Part shown: positions 42,198 to 47,700 of the stretch, piece by piece
Position numbering within the stretch: position 1 is the stretch's first letter
Layout of the letters: each line of letters starts with the position of its first letter
From: Acidobacteriaceae bacterium
GTDB taxonomy: Bacteria > Acidobacteriota > Terriglobia > Terriglobales > Acidobacteriaceae
Reading direction: 5' to 3'
Length of the DNA stretch: 54,311 nucleotides
Assembly: GCA_003134435.1 (NCBI GenBank)
Contig: PLBE01000229.1
Span: 1-54,311 of the forward strand
Program-made: the position numbers and the translations under genes
The notes under the pieces: generated by a model
Seen by the model: only the letters and a program-made list of their open reading frames with translations
Databases searched by the model: none
What the model was told of the DNA's origin: nothing

Positions 42198-42863
42198 TTG
42201 TCTAAGTTTGAGAACATCTCGTCGATGCAATTGGTGAGAGCCTGCGCTGGCTCCGACGCGGGCTCAAAGAAGGATGACAGAGAAGCGTGGGAGGAGTTTA
42301 TCCGGCGCTTTCATCCGGTGATTGCCAGCGCGGTGCTGCGGACTGCCCGGCAGTGGGATGAACCGGCACGCGCGCTCATCGACGACCTGATCCAGGAAGC
42401 CTACCTGAAGCTCTGCGAGAACGATTACCGCCTGCTGCGTGGCTTCCAGCCGGTGCATGAAAATTCGATTTACAAATTTCTGAAGGTCGTGGCGTCGAAT
42501 GTTGTGCGCGATTATTTCAAGGCGAAGAACGCGATCAAGCGGGGCGAAGGCCAAACCGAACCGATCACGGAAGCGATGCTGCAGAGCCTTCCGGCTGATA
42601 TGGAAAAAGCGGGCGGCACCGAATGGGATGCAGTCAGCCAGCGGATTGAACTGGATAAGATCGACAGGGTCCTGAGGGAACTCACGGGGAAAGAGAGCGC
42701 CAGGAACCGCATCATTTTCTGGCTGCGGCACCGGCAAGGGTTAACCGCGGCTGAGATCGCATGCATTCCTTCATTCGGACTGACGACGGAAGGAGTAGAG
42801 AGTGTTCTGATGCGCCTGGCGGCGGTGATCAGCAAGCATCAGGGATATTCCCCAGAGGATTAG
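42198..42863 (+). CDS. ECF-type RNA polymerase sigma factor
   Basis: A 221-residue sigma-70-family factor with sigma-2 (about 30-100: AWEEFIRRFHPVI, IDDLIQEAYLKLCEN, FLKVVASNVVRDYFKA) and sigma-4 (about 160-215: RIIFWLRHRQGLTAAEIA, GLTTEGVESVLMRL). Regions 1 and 3 are absent, as in ECF factors. The start is TTG 42198, which keeps the N-terminal residues common in this group; ATG 42225 is an alternative. The next gene, 65 bases downstream, encodes a protein with two anti-sigma-type zinc motifs, very likely its regulator. Confidence 0.87.
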   Translation: MSKFENISSMQLVRACAGSDAGSKKDDREAWEEFIRRFHPVIASAVLRTARQWDEPARALIDDLIQEAYLKLCENDYRLLRGFQPVHENSIYKFLKVVASNVVRDYFKAKNAIKRGEGQTEPITEAMLQSLPADMEKAGGTEWDAVSQRIELDKIDRVLRELTGKESARNRIIFWLRHRQGLTAAEIACIPSFGLTTEGVESVLMRLAAVISKHQGYSPED

Positions 42864-42928
42864 GCCGACTCATTGTGTTGGGTGAAGGGTTTGAGCAATT
42901 AAAATCGTTTTAGTGTGATGGGGAGATA

Positions 42929-45900
42929 GTGCGGGAAAAGAGTCCTGGGGAACATATACCGGCAGCGGAACTGGCACACCTCCTCGAAGTCTCCCGGCGG
43001 TGGAAAGCCTCGCGAGAGGCGGCGGAGGTGCATCCTCACTTCGCGATTTGTCCGTCTTGCCGGGAGCGTTTTGAGGTTTTGGTTTCGCTGGAAGGGCAAT
43101 TGCGGAGCAAGATCGCGAGCAGGAGAAGAATGGAGTCTGCGAGGAACGAGAACGAGTGTCTGGGGGCAGAGGCGTGGCGTGAGATTGCCGCCGGCCTGAT
43201 GCCTCCAGAGCAGACGCTTGCCTGCATCGAACACGCGAGCGGCTGTGAATCTTGTGGGCCGCAGTTCCGTGAGGCAGTGGCCGAAGCTAGCCGTCTGAAT
43301 GCAGAACTGACGGAGGCAGAGCAAAAGCAAGTCGCGAGTCTGGCAAGCGCCAGGGTGGAGTGGCAGCAGCGGCTAGCCCGGCAAATTGCGGCCGCAACAG
43401 CCTCCGAGCGCCGTCCCTCGCCGCAGAGGAGCAAGTGGCTGGCGGTTCCTCGACTGGCGCTGGCTGGAGCAGCCCTGCTAGCTCTGGTTGGCGTGGGAAT
43501 ATGGGTGGTGGGATCGTGGATCATCCTGGAACGGAAGCAGGTCGCCACGGCCACGCGCCTATTGGCCCGCGCTTATAGCGAGCAGCGTACGCTCGAACTG
43601 AGGATGGGAGATGCCACGTATGCGCCGCTGCGCATTTCGCGCGGCCCGGCAGATTCGTTTACAAGTCGCCCGCCCGCACTGTTAAAGGCGGAAGCGCTGA
43701 TCGCCAGCCAACTCGAAACCCATCCTTCCGATGTTTCGTGGCTGCAGGCCAAGGCGCGGGCGGACGTGCTGGAAGGCAAGTATGACGCGGCCATTGAAGC
43801 CCTGCGGCGCGCGGTTGAGTTGCAGCCGGGTTCGCCGGCGCTTCTGGCCGATTTGGCAACCGCCTACTTCCAGCGCGCGCGAACGGAAAACGATCGAGCG
43901 GAGGATTTCGGCACAGCCTATGAATACCTGAGTCAGGCCTTGAAGATTCAGCCTGACGATGCTGTGGCGCTCTTCAATCGAGCCATTGTCGCCGAACACG
44001 AATCCCTTTACCGGCAAGCGCTCGATGACTGGGAGCATTATCTGCGCCTGGATTCGGGCTCCGCGTGGGCGGGAGAAGCTCGCGAGCGGGCGGAGGCGGT
44101 GCGGGACAAATTGAAAGAGCATGGCAGCGTGGCCGCACCCTTGTTAGCGGTTGACCAAGTGGCGGCGATAAGCGGCCGCGCCAACTCCGATTCCGAAGAC
44201 GAGGCCGAAATCGACTCGCGGGTCGGAGAGTACTTGCACCAAGCCGTCCTCACGTGGTTGCCCGAGGCCTTCCCGGAAGCCCGGGCCCGGGCTCAAGGGA
44301 ATGAAGCAGCGCAAGCGGCCGCCTCGCAGGCGCTTTTTTTTTTGGCGGAGCTGACTAGCCGGCAACACGGCGATGGTTGGCTCTCGGACCTTCTGCGTGG
44401 ATCGGGAGGGCCCCAGTTTCCGCAAGCCGTCGCTGCCCTGGCTCGGGCCGTGAAGGCCAATGACAGCGGCGATAATGATGTGTCGCGCCAGCAGTCTGCC
44501 GTTGCGGAGAAGTGGTTTCGAGCATCGGGCAACATGGCGGGAGCGCTACGGGCGCAGTTTGAGCAGACCTTCGCGGCTCAAGTCGCACGACAAAGCGAAG
44601 CTTGCCGGCAGCAGGCGACCACGGCGCTGGCGCTTTCCGAGAAATATCCATACCCGTGGTTGCAGATTCAGCTTGGGCTGGAGAAAGCGGTCTGTTCCAC
44701 GCTGAGGGGCGACATCGGCGCCGACGAGAAGGCCACGGGCCGCGCCTTGGATCGGGCGCAGAAGAGCGGGTTCGAAGCGCTGTATCTGCGGGCCGTGTTG
44801 TTCGCCGCCGAAGATAAGCGCTTGACTGGCGATCGGGCTGGCGCTTCGGCACTGGTCAGTCGAGGTTTGGAGCGCTATTGGTCGGGGCAGTTTCCCGCGG
44901 TGCGGGGATACAGCCTGTATGTGGGCCTGGCCAACATCGCTGAAGCCGCGAAGCAGCCGAACCTGCAGGTAGCGAGTTTGCGCGAAGCGGTGGCCGTGAT
45001 CGACTCCGATGACGATCTGATGCAGCGCGCTCTGGCTCACAACCGGTTGGCGGATGCGGCAACGGCCGCGCACCTGCCCAATGTCGCGGAAAGGCAATAC
45101 GGCGAGGCGGCCCGGCTTTTGGCGGCAGCGCCACGGACCGAGGGGCGTCGGAACGACGCCCTAGAGACAGCCATCCGGACCGCACGGTTAGAGGTGCAGC
45201 TTGGCCGGTTCGAGGACGCGATCGTTCGTCTGACCGCCATTCAGGAACAGATTCGCCCGCTTTCCAATCAGTATCTGGCACAGATGTTTTATTCCACGCT
45301 GGGCGAGTTACAACTGAGCAGGCACCGGGAGGTGGAAGCGGAGCAGGCGCTGCGGCCCGCACTGGACTTGGCCGAACAGAGCCTGGCCACGCTGCGGTCG
45401 GAGCCGGAACGAGCGAACTGGAGCAAGGACGCGGCTCCGGCCTATCTGGCACTGACGGAAGCTGAACTGGCGCAGGGCCGGTCCGAGGAAGCGCTTGAAA
45501 CCTACGAGTGGTACCTCGGAGCCCCGCAGCGGGAGACAGCCGATTCGAACTTCCGACGACTCGCGTATCGGCCGGGCGGTGATGGCGCGTATGAAGCGAC
45601 GAGTAGCCCACCCACACGGGAACGATCGCGGCTGGCGGCTGTGCTTCCCTTGCTGGCAAGAGAAACAGTGATCGCGTATGCCGTATTGCCCGATGGGTTG
45701 GCGATCTGGATCTATGACGACCGGGGTATCAACACGCGCTGGATTCCACAATCCACGACCGGGCTGCAAGAGTTGGCGGAGCGTTTTCACGACCTGTCTT
45801 CCGATCCCCAGTCGGAGTTGAGCGCGTTGCGCCGCGACGCACGCAGCCTGTACGGATTGCTGATCGCTCCGGTGGAACAATCTCTTGCGCCCGGACGCAC

Positions 45901-46657
45901 ACTGGTGATTGAGGCGCCGGAATGGCTCGCCCGGGTACCCTTTGAAGCGCTGCTGGATGCGAACGATCACTACCTGATCGAGCGCTCGGCGGTGGTGCAC
46001 TCGCTGGGTCAGGATTCGCAGGCGCGGCTGCGCTCCGACGCGCTGATTTCGGCGGACTTGCCGGCCCTGGTGGTAGGCAGCACGGCTTCGTCGCCGTCGG
46101 ATGGCCTCATTCCGCTGCCGGATGTGGCCCGCGAAGCCGAAGGGGTGGGCAGCTGGTTTAAGTCTCCGCAGATTCTAAAAGGTGGCGAAGCGACACTCAC
46201 CAGAGTCCAGAACGAGTTGCCCTCGGCTGCCGTGTTTCATTTCGCGGGACACTCGCTGGCCACCTCCGGCCGCACCGGATTGCTGCTGCAGAACGAAGAT
46301 GGAAGAGCGAGCGTTCCGCGCCTGTTGGACGCAGCCGAGGTGCGGCAGCTTCGACTGCGAAACCTGCAGTTAGCAGTGCTGTCGGCTTGCGGTACCGCGT
46401 CCGAGAGCGGAGGGTCGGGCGGATTCGACAGCATTGGCGATGCTCTGCTGGGTGCCGGCGTGCCTCATGTAGTCGCGAGCCGGTGGCCGGTGGACTCTGC
46501 CGAAGCGCGCGAATTTGTTCAGGATTTTTATCACAATGCGCTGTCGGGCCAGACGGTATCCGAAGCAGTCCGTCTCACTTCGCGGAAGATGCTATCAAAC
46601 CCACGAACGGTTCATCCTTACTACTGGTCTGCGTTTGCAGCGTATGGGCGCCCCTAA
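42929..46657 (+). CDS. Zinc-finger (anti-sigma-like) - TM - TPR - CHAT protease fusion
   Basis: A 1242-residue protein starting at GTG 42929 (GGGGAGATA upstream). Order: two HxxxCxxC motifs of anti-sigma (ZAS) type, His37-Cys41-Cys44 and His102-Cys106-Cys109; one membrane helix at about 177-200, preceded by basic residues, so the N-terminus should be cytoplasmic; TPR-like helical repeats from about 245 to 900 (KARADVLEGKYDAAIEALRR is clear); then a CHAT caspase-like domain from about 950, with presumed catalytic His1108 in FHFAGH and Cys1154 in LSACGT. It follows an ECF sigma gene and probably binds that sigma, releasing it on a signal. Topology would place the CHAT domain outside the cytoplasm. 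Substrate unknown. Confidence 0.88.
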   Translation: MREKSPGEHIPAAELAHLLEVSRRWKASREAAEVHPHFAICPSCRERFEVLVSLEGQLRSKIASRRRMESARNENECLGAEAWREIAAGLMPPEQTLACIEHASGCESCGPQFREAVAEASRLNAELTEAEQKQVASLASARVEWQQRLARQIAAATASERRPSPQRSKWLAVPRLALAGAALLALVGVGIWVVGSWIILERKQVATATRLLARAYSEQRTLELRMGDATYAPLRISRGPADSFTSRPPALLKAEALIASQLETHPSDVSWLQAKARADVLEGKYDAAIEALRRAVELQPGSPALLADLATAYFQRARTENDRAEDFGTAYEYLSQALKIQPDDAVALFNRAIVAEHESLYRQALDDWEHYLRLDSGSAWAGEARERAEAVRDKLKEHGSVAAPLLAVDQVAAISGRANSDSEDEAEIDSRVGEYLHQAVLTWLPEAFPEARARAQGNEAAQAAASQALFFLAELTSRQHGDGWLSDLLRGSGGPQFPQAVAALARAVKANDSGDNDVSRQQSAVAEKWFRASGNMAGALRAQFEQTFAAQVARQSEACRQQATTALALSEKYPYPWLQIQLGLEKAVCSTLRGDIGADEKATGRALDRAQKSGFEALYLRAVLFAAEDKRLTGDRAGASALVSRGLERYWSGQFPAVRGYSLYVGLANIAEAAKQPNLQVASLREAVAVIDSDDDLMQRALAHNRLADAATAAHLPNVAERQYGEAARLLAAAPRTEGRRNDALETAIRTARLEVQLGRFEDAIVRLTAIQEQIRPLSNQYLAQMFYSTLGELQLSRHREVEAEQALRPALDLAEQSLATLRSEPERANWSKDAAPAYLALTEAELAQGRSEEALETYEWYLGAPQRETADSNFRRLAYRPGGDGAYEATSSPPTRERSRLAAVLPLLARETVIAYAVLPDGLAIWIYDDRGINTRWIPQSTTGLQELAERFHDLSSDPQSELSALRRDARSLYGLLIAPVEQSLAPGRTLVIEAPEWLARVPFEALLDANDHYLIERSAVVHSLGQDSQARLRSDALISADLPALVVGSTASSPSDGLIPLPDVAREAEGVGSWFKSPQILKGGEATLTRVQNELPSAAVFHFAGHSLATSGRTGLLLQNEDGRASVPRLLDAAEVRQLRLRNLQLAVLSACGTASESGGSGGFDSIGDALLGAGVPHVVASRWPVDSAEAREFVQDFYHNALSGQTVSEAVRLTSRKMLSNPRTVHPYYWSAFAAYGRP

Positions 46658-46758
46658 GTCCGTAGTACGCAGTTCACGGCGCGGGTGAAAGCCGAGCCCT
46701 TTCCAAGCGGGTCCAAATTGAGGCACCAACCCTAATTCCGTTATGAGGAGGCCCTTTG

Positions 46759-47700
46759 ATGCGAACCCAACTCTACTCGAACAGCAAGCTAGTTGCGGTG
46801 GCGGTTGCAGCTTTCGCGACTCTCTTTCTGGTTGCATGTCAGTCGAGTCCGCGGTCGATCGCTCCGGCAAAGGAGATGAAAGCAGACGCTGGCAAAGAGG
46901 TTTTCGTAGTTTTCGAAGGCCCGTGGGCTTTCGTGGACGACCCGAAAGATAGCAACAGCGTCCTAGCGCTTGCGCCCAAGACGAAATTGCACCGCGATCT
47001 TTATGTGACGGCCTCGAATAGCTCGACGCTGGCGTCGGGCGTTTACGAGCTTTCGGTACCGGCCCATGGCCCCGCTTTTTCGGGCGCGCTCGATTCCGGC
47101 TTTGCGCAAGCGAAGATTGACGCCAAGAGTTTGCAGCGGGCGCTTGACGACAAGGCGGAGCGCTATGTCATTCGACTGCCCAAGCCCGAAGCGTATGTGG
47201 CCGCCAAGCGGGACCGGAGCCGGGTGGGTCCGAGTTATCCTCCCGATGCTTCGACGGAGCAGTTGTACGCGACCTTTGTGTCGCTCCGCTACAACGTCGG
47301 GAGTCTGAACGGCTTTTCATTGGCGGGCAGTCCGGACAGCGGCGCGTTTAATCCACTGCTGCTGCAGTTGGAGACCCCGCATATTCGCTTTGCGATTGAG
47401 CCGGCGCAATTTGACGATATGAGCGACACCTGCGACCTGCACTCGCGGGAGTCTTTCCGAACTACGACGAAGTTCCTGGGGCTGAAGTTGTATGTCGAGT
47501 TTCCGGGCTACACGGAAGACTGCCGCAAAACGGATCCGCAGATGAATCGGATGCGGGGGGAGAGTGGGATACGTCGGGTGGAATTGTTGCCGGCGATGGT
47601 GGTGGCGTATCCGGTGGCGCGTGATCTTGCCGCTTATTTTTTTCATGCGGACCACCTAGATTGCCATGCTCCGGTGTTGTTTCTGACGATTGGTCCTTAA
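46759..47700 (+). CDS. Lipoprotein of unknown function next to the CHAT gene
   Basis: A 313-residue protein from ATG 46759 with GAGGAGG nine bases upstream. The N-terminus is a lipoprotein signal, LVAVAVAAFATLFLVAC, lipidated at Cys27. The mature domain begins VFVVFEGPWAFVDDP and has many beta strands and few Cys (two pairs). I do not recognise the family. It lies 101 bases after the CHAT gene on the same strand and would share its predicted non-cytoplasmic compartment, so it is a candidate partner or substrate; this is inference from position. Confidence 0.8.
   Translation: MRTQLYSNSKLVAVAVAAFATLFLVACQSSPRSIAPAKEMKADAGKEVFVVFEGPWAFVDDPKDSNSVLALAPKTKLHRDLYVTASNSSTLASGVYELSVPAHGPAFSGALDSGFAQAKIDAKSLQRALDDKAERYVIRLPKPEAYVAAKRDRSRVGPSYPPDASTEQLYATFVSLRYNVGSLNGFSLAGSPDSGAFNPLLLQLETPHIRFAIEPAQFDDMSDTCDLHSRESFRTTTKFLGLKLYVEFPGYTEDCRKTDPQMNRMRGESGIRRVELLPAMVVAYPVARDLAAYFFHADHLDCHAPVLFLTIGP

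Follow-up and report, generated by a model that had tools for sequence, protein, structure and literature searches.

CHAT domains are common in bacteria, and few of them have a known substrate or output. The RpoE/RseA system combines a membrane anti-sigma factor with RpoE-dependent small RNAs as output. The zinc ligands of the ZAS anti-sigma factors RsrA and ChrR fit the pattern of an Hx3Cx2C motif plus an upstream ligand. An anti-sigma factor and a CHAT domain in one membrane protein are already known from DdvA of Myxococcus xanthus, which is paired with the extracytoplasmic function (ECF) sigma factor DdvS. In this study, a similar arrangement was analyzed in a 54,311-nucleotide stretch of DNA (hereafter the window; contig PLBE01000229.1, assembly GCA_003134435.1) from an Acidobacteriaceae bacterium: an ECF-type sigma gene followed by a gene for one protein with anti-sigma, TPR and CHAT parts (hereafter the fusion). 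The locus is likely to be a transmembrane switch of the DdvS/DdvA type that acts on its own expression and on a small RNA.

DdvS is described as active after inactivation of DdvA, with an unknown inducing signal (PMC4374960), and as controlling a defense island in which type III-B CRISPR-Cas occurs together with systems of the CBASS type (PMC12288465, PMC8156234). Other reports place ZAS anti-sigma factors in class I (PMC7406223), state that Csx29 of type III-E CRISPR cleaves Csx30 and that different proteases cut RseA (PMC10028731), and give CHAT, subtilase or carboxypeptidase as the context of the ECF54 group (PMC8999054).

Gene pair and its conservation

The linkage of the two genes, the conserved ligands and catalytic residues, one strong membrane helix, and a conserved promoter and small RNA are present in the genomes. 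The host is a soil bacterium with a draft genome of 5.75 Mb in 261 contigs. The initial annotation of the window had described a sigma gene and then a single protein combining two HxxxCxxC motifs with a membrane helix, TPR-like repeats and a CHAT domain that keeps His1108 and Cys1154. Both open reading frames (ORFs) were found at the positions given there, and all of these parts are present; a promoter at 42883–42912 and a linked third gene at 46759–47700 were absent from it. The features of the locus are as follows.

42198..42863, forward strand: ECF-type sigma gene, 221 amino acids, TTG start (TIGR02937 match)
42883..42912, forward strand: ECF-type promoter predicted for the fusion gene (−35 GAAGG at 42884-42888, 16 nt, −10 TCGTT at 42905-42909)
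42929..46657, forward strand: anti-sigma/TPR/CHAT fusion gene, 1242 amino acids, GTG start (ORF, domain matches, alignment)
43037..43060, forward strand: first HxxxCxxC zinc motif, residues 37-44 (motif; conservation incomplete across relatives)
43157..43255, forward strand: second ZAS-like module, residues 77-109, ligands C77/H102/C106/C109 (alignment, n = 23)
43454..43510, forward strand: predicted transmembrane helix, residues ~176-194 (hydropathy scan; model helix 176-204)
43706..44098, forward strand: N-terminal TPR region, residues ~260-390 (domain scan)
44603..44695, forward strand: Cys559 and Cys589, C-terminal to the membrane helix (alignment, n = 23; neighboring helices in the model)
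45833..46648, forward strand: CHAT protease domain, residues 969-1240, His1108/Cys1154 present (domain scan, alignment)
46745-46751, forward strand: GAGGAGG, ribosome-site-like, ahead of the third gene (sequence)
46759..47700, forward strand: third gene, encoding a lipoprotein-like product of 313 amino acids without a known family (many relatives carry a related gene behind the fusion)

The sigma70-ECF model TIGR02937 matched the 221-amino-acid ORF at 46.1 bits (cut-off 42.9), and a profile of the sigma relatives matched RpoE (1or7) at E 4e-4. The Pfam models of sigma regions 2 and 4 stayed under their cut-offs in this ORF (18.8 vs 24 and 16.2 vs 25.7 bits). Judged by these matches, the protein is a divergent member, ECF-type rather than a typical ECF sigma factor.

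The fusion search covered 61 genomes, the host and 60 relatives. The sigma factor was detected in 25 of them at 1e-8, and some fusion match was obtained at 1e-3 in 51, many of these being CHAT- or TPR-only. In tblastn, the sigma gene adjoined the fusion in 22/22 loci with long matches, including the window (L003-L022, L024 and L025); L023, which begins within the fusion gene, stands outside this count. A second collection shares part of its genomes with the first; there, the sigma gene was present in 36 of 39 loci (L121-L159); L141, L149 and L152 begin within the fusion. In L150, the sigma gene was on the opposite strand and the anti-sigma gene was separate. Linkage of the sigma gene to the fusion in relatives, a check named in the initial annotation, was thus borne out. 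Among the 34 partial-match loci (L160-L193), whose CHAT ORFs had no HxxxCxxC, a sigma match was found in three, one of them (L181) inside a long, probably out-of-frame ORF. The fusion relatives came mostly from metagenome-assembled genomes of Acidobacteriaceae, Terriglobia and other Acidobacteriota, and one (L154) was labelled Acidimicrobiia.

Two side observations concern these sets. In L165 and L168, which stand outside this fusion family, CHAT proteins lacking the zinc motif had different sigma-like genes next to them. In G007 (contig C273; L020/L132), a frameshift, which may be an assembly error, splits the fusion shortly ahead of the catalytic His, which is intact in the second frame.

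Domain composition of the fusion

The 1242-amino-acid protein contained two HxxxCxxC motifs, at residues 37-44 and 102-109. In the alignment of 23 fusions, from which the frameshifted L020 and the partial L023 were left out, C77, H102, C106 and C109 were invariant (23/23). These residues form an Hx3Cx2C motif with an upstream fourth ligand, as in ZAS factors. In some distant relatives, the upstream Cys ligand was replaced. The first HxxxCxxC was missing in L013, L015, L021 and L024 and incomplete in L018 and others. A profile of residues 1-205 gave seven solved matches at E 1, including RsiW (0.08), 3hug (0.12), a membrane protein chain that we take to be RslA, and DdvA (0.4); the other four (E 0.3-0.8), zinc-finger proteins among them, are not known to act as anti-sigma factors. 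The N-terminal model had a pLDDT of 85 and a pTM of 0.48, and its residues 74-126 were superposed in VIA on ChrR 3-55 with Z 4.4 and rmsd 1.7 over 52 residues. Motif, profile and model agree, no single score being strong, and point to a ZAS assignment. The earlier proposal of a ZAS anti-sigma N-terminus was supported as to the invariant ligands and the best solved matches, which are anti-sigma factors, while every score for it is weak.

The CHAT match covered residues 969-1240 (E 3e-57), with TPRs at about 260-390. The CHAT His and Cys were intact in 59/59 proteins: the 23 aligned fusions, another 33 CHAT proteins from a broader sampling and three partial ones (L141, L152 and L132). The catalytic residues are thus conserved among relatives, another check named in the initial annotation, and since the dyad is intact throughout, protease activity is probably needed. 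The invariance of both the zinc ligands and the CHAT His/Cys in the 23 fusions argues that these parts are not a product of chance.

The TPR-CHAT model had a pLDDT of 85 and a pTM of 0.73. In Foldseek, the anti-sigma factor DdvA (8rot) came first at E 1e-15, followed by Csx29 and separase; in VIA, Csx29 reached Z 29 and separase Z 28, with DdvA at rank 19 (Z 26.6), so that all three fell within three units. The fold match to DdvA is long with about 15% identity, and the sequence profile match (E 1e-7) covers only part of the CHAT domain, where His aligns with His and Cys with Cys. A second CHAT match in the same genome was located near a contig end (C110:10264-10530, L002).

The best membrane window was at residues 176-194 (hydropathy 2.48), within a model helix of 176-204. 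In the folded part of the protein, a second and less hydrophobic stretch was noted at 902 (1.76). The hydropathy scan gave a single clearly best helix in each of the 23 fusions. Cys559 and Cys589, with a spacing of 30, were invariant in 23/23 fusions and lie on neighboring helices in the model. Because access to the sigma factor is required of the ZAS part, the N-terminus is predicted in the cytoplasm and the TPR-CHAT part on the far side of the membrane; the cysteine pair and the mostly present export signals of the third protein are consistent with this topology.

Predicted promoter at the boundary and the small RNA

The boundary element, TGAAGGGTTT-N12-TCGTTTTA, lies between the sigma gene and the fusion gene. 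GAAGG-N16-TCGTT was present at the boundary in all 19 genus genomes with an orthologous pair (G000, G003-G013, G015, G016, G018, G019 and G021-G023), out of 24 genus genomes searched. It fell within the sigma coding end in 10 genomes and wholly or partly past the stop in 9, so coding constraint does not explain its conservation. In the window, it was the only match with three or fewer mismatches (0.17 expected). In the whole genome, it was the only match with fewer than two; one other site had two, and the reversed pattern gave one. No site of this type was found upstream of the sigma gene in the window at up to three mismatches, so the predicted loop would drive the inhibitor and not the sigma factor. 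Exact GAAGG-N16-TCGTTnTA sites in the genus numbered 55, compared with 11 for the reversed control; 15 were at the fusion, 16 at the small RNA described below and 24 elsewhere, two of these in the host genome.

A matrix derived from the genus was applied to 25 paralogous or distant loci with 200 base-composition shuffles each. A related motif was detected near the boundary in 14 of the 25 at ≤0.02, five of which (L143, L148, L159, L088 and L090) had been spotted by eye beforehand. The motif of L158 was 100 nt ahead of the sigma stop. Paralogous sigma-fusion pairs carried AAAAGG-type forms of the motif.

The pattern search revealed a second recurrent class of sites, ahead of an unannotated RNA that is about 160 nt long and ends in a strong intrinsic terminator. 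Its consensus fold had 40 pairs, of which 10 were changed on both sides, six of those in the terminator. A model built from 12 copies found the RNA in 21 of the 61 genomes, all in the genus (21/24), often directly 3' of a proline-dehydrogenase-like gene (name by eye). The host copy lies outside the window:

G000 contig C157:19532-19688, reverse strand (locus L113): small RNA with a GAAGG-N16-TCGTT promoter

GAAGG-N16-TCGT(T/C) was located 9-10 nt ahead of 20 RNA copies in 19/19 pair-bearing genomes, a spacing that is partly by construction, because the RNA start in the first 12 copies was placed at the GGAA after the site. Two further copies (G005b and G004b) were weak and degenerate and had no promoter. 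In the two RNA-bearing genomes without an orthologous pair, G001 and G017, the promoter was ahead of none of the three copies. G001 had a paralogous sigma factor with a zinc-motif protein without CHAT. In G017, which has two RNA copies, no sigma factor was found; both copies kept TCGTT and had a changed −35. In G002, G014 and G020, neither the sigma factor nor the small RNA was detected. No Rfam match was obtained over the small RNA at E 1 in eight RNA loci. An identification as 6S RNA was rejected, because RF00013 matches elsewhere (over the cut-off in 16/24 genomes; the host copy is on contig C147).

Some further sites and elements were recorded. Intergenic GAAGG-N16-TCGTT sites in L194-L199 and L202, several in the form GAAGGGAAAA, may be extra targets or promoters of another sigma factor. 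No common downstream gene was seen among these seven loci, and in L197-L199 the similarity surrounding the site extended over 53-74 nt. Sites at a cydA-like start (L075 and L076; gene name by eye) were rejected as regulatory, since they lie inside a conserved coding frame. Acido-Lenti-1 elements (RF01687) occurred near small-RNA loci (L063 9947-9992, L063 8870-8916 and L070 4445-4490).

Third gene and split forms

In BLASTP against the third protein of the window, 20 of 38 downstream ORFs matched at 1e-4, and several others formed linked groups; the downstream ORFs of L147, L148, L152 and L156-L159 had no BLASTP match among the 38. A profile search added weak matches in L152 and L153 and one in the phylum locus L246, and other look-alikes were noted by eye. 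A lipobox-like site was present in 17 of 18 third proteins of the genus-type set (L121-L136, L140 and the window). A hydrophobic or twin-arginine-like N-terminal stretch was seen by eye in L145, L146, L153, L157, L159, L240, L243 and L246. No convincing Pfam family was found in the 18 members, and no solved relative at E 1. The third protein is fast-evolving and, by predicted signals, mostly exported.

The sigma profile was run on 297 genomes of the phylum and found its target in 36 genomes from 24 of 167 genera at 1e-10. Thirty-six of the 48 places listed were examined. The fusion was present in 11 of these loci. Four (L241, L244, L247 and L257) had a split form, in which a ZAS-membrane gene precedes a distinct gene of the membrane-TPR-CHAT type, and two (L258 and L260) were ambiguous. 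Two others (L235 and L236) had a zinc-motif protein without CHAT, and in 17, some near contig ends, small anti-sigma-like proteins or nothing recognized lay downstream. The sister loci L078-L081 had a paralogous sigma gene beside a zinc-motif membrane protein; as CHAT carriers they were rejected, because these proteins have only 372-405 amino acids and no CHAT, and the boundary motif fails there.

The surroundings of the locus were also surveyed. The upstream genes encode a peptidase of the S13 type, an enzyme that binds pterin, a histidine kinase and ALA dehydratase; those downstream encode a regulator with a winged helix, an IPP transferase and a glycoside hydrolase of family 3. Simple scans for sigma-70 promoters and terminators gave nothing in excess of shuffles. 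PADLOC, applied at a threshold of 1e-10 to 83 neighbor proteins (11 of the window and 72 of 132 listed neighbors, with no locus after L153), returned 33 families; those listed each matched one of the 83 and were mostly PD-T4-6 models. No defense family recurred among the first 25 of the 33.

Discussion

In the proposed mechanism, the cytoplasmic zinc module or modules of the fusion would hold the ECF sigma factor at the membrane. The TPR-CHAT part across the membrane would sense or process something, and the mostly exported third protein is the best candidate partner. A signal would free the sigma factor for transcription from GAAGG-N16-TCGTT promoters. One output would be the fusion gene, that is, its own inhibitor, giving negative feedback, with the third gene probably co-transcribed. 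The other would be the unlinked small RNA. The binding of the sigma factor by the fusion, the topology and the use of GAAGG-N16-TCGTT by this sigma factor are deduced from sequence.

Several results weigh against this interpretation. The zf-HC2 model matched the fusion only at E 0.035, under the cut-off. The anti-sigma profile matches are weak (E 0.08-0.4), and unrelated proteins score in the same range (0.3). Foldseek placed ChrR first for the N-terminal model, but at E 2.5, and unrelated rows in VIA (Z 3.9 and 3.5) came close behind ChrR. As for topology, the helix is flanked by only a weak positive-inside charge bias, several more distant relatives lack the Cys559/Cys589 pair, and no export signal was seen in the third proteins of L151, L154, L155, L156, L158, L237, L241, L247, L252 and L257. 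The promoter pattern was derived from the boundary regions, so its recurrence there is conservation and no independent test. Eleven of the 25 paralogous or distant loci had no motif at 0.02, and in L137, L138, L143 and L159 some site elsewhere in the locus scored equally high. The RNA-bearing genomes without the pair are only two, with three copies, and may be one lineage; one of the G017 copies is off from GAAGG by a single base. The 24 exact sites away from the fusion and the RNA could be other targets or sites of other sigma factors. The paralogue controls and the sites without an assigned target reduced confidence in the proposed switch slightly.

What the CHAT domain acts on can be explained in two ways. 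It may be the trigger, as the initial annotation had it: upon a signal, the fusion would cleave itself close to the membrane, either in cis or between the chains of a dimer, and so free the sigma factor. The intact dyad in all 59 CHAT proteins fits such self-cleavage, as does the joining of anti-sigma and protease in most relatives read. It is nevertheless unlikely: anti-sigma and CHAT membrane proteins are separate in several Acidobacteriota, including L150, which speaks decisively against cis cleavage as a general mechanism; a specific cleavage site cannot be pointed to; and the protease is predicted across the membrane from the sigma-binding part. Processing of the third protein by CHAT, with the sigma arm reporting on it, would resemble the logic of Csx29/Csx30 transferred across the membrane and is somewhat easier to accept, though still tentative. 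The related gene directly downstream (20 of 38 matching, others in linked groups) and the lipobox-like site in 17/18 of the genus-type set speak for it, and Csx29, which cleaves Csx30 (PMC10028731), is among the nearest folds. Against it, the third protein has no Pfam family or, at E 1, solved relative, and some versions have no visible export signal. As a candidate substrate, the third protein appears equally good as the fusion itself.

If the boundary motif were read by a different sigma factor, its presence at the fusion and the RNA would be uninformative on this one. The 24 further GAAGG-N16-TCGTTnTA sites, some intergenic, against 11 for the reversed control, would suit such a reader. The explanation is improbable, because G001 and G017, which have the RNA but not the orthologous sigma factor, show an altered motif ahead of it, and AAAAGG-type forms stand ahead of paralogous sigma-fusion pairs. 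Draft genomes and the frameshifted G007 fusion might suggest an assembly artefact or chance neighbors; with the identical order in 22/22 loci from separate genomes, this is already refuted and of negligible probability.

The DdvS/DdvA-type switch could be extended to a three-part switch of the inner membrane, in which a periplasmic CHAT domain has the exported third protein as its ligand or substrate, processing of that protein frees the sigma factor, and the main conserved outputs are the locus itself and a dedicated small RNA. This extension is speculative and rather doubtful. If true, it would be a widespread signalling class in Acidobacteriota, and the fused and split forms would show the joining of protease and anti-sigma factor. 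The promoter, the small-RNA target, the candidate partner and the fused and split forms would make the role of CHAT in sigma signalling directly testable, beyond DdvA.

Comparison with known systems

No description of this acidobacterial system was found in titles and abstract openings among the matches listed, most subscription journals lying outside the coverage. The N-terminus of the fusion resembles the ZAS factors ChrR, RsrA, RsiW and RslA in its Hx3Cx2C motif with an upstream Cys/His ligand, and differs from them in having two zinc modules in tandem. To our knowledge, these four have no CHAT or TPR extension. RpoE/RseA shares with the proposed system a membrane anti-sigma factor and a small RNA output. 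The ECF54 group also has ECF sigma factors with CHAT proteins nearby, but is described as acting without an anti-sigma factor (PMC8999054).

The initial annotation had taken type III-E CRISPR as its guiding analogue. The Csx29/Csx30/CASP-sigma system (Craspase) likewise ties a TPR-CHAT protease to an ECF-like sigma factor, with high fold similarity. In type III-E, however, the sigma inhibitor Csx30 is separate from the protease and activation is by target RNA (PMC10028731), whereas the acidobacterial anti-sigma factor is part of the protease or its membrane neighbor. The type III-E sigma model NF041236 gave 14.7 bits on the window sigma factor against a cut-off of 100, and DdvS/DdvA is nearer. 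The earlier annotation as a whole therefore stands in the sigma-fusion pairing, the catalytic conservation and the ZAS-like N-terminus, and was replaced in its choice of nearest analogue.

Like the present locus, DdvS/DdvA (PDB 8rot, 8rw5 and 8rlz) consists of an ECF sigma factor and a transmembrane anti-sigma factor ending in a CHAT fold, with His and Cys kept at the aligned CHAT positions. The fusion has all parts of the DdvA type: an anti-sigma domain, whose fold match is weak, a membrane helix, CHAT and an adjoining ECF sigma gene. It differs in sequence (about 15% identity) and in its tandem zinc motifs. The promoter is predicted here between sigma and anti-sigma genes, whereas the ddvS promoter itself needs DdvS (PMC4374960). 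The described output of DdvS is a CBASS/CRISPR-Cas island (PMC12288465), while here no defense family recurs among the 25 listed families of the 83 neighbor proteins. Beyond DdvA, the acidobacterial loci would add a predicted regulon with a small RNA, a third gene, split forms and a spread in Acidobacteriota.

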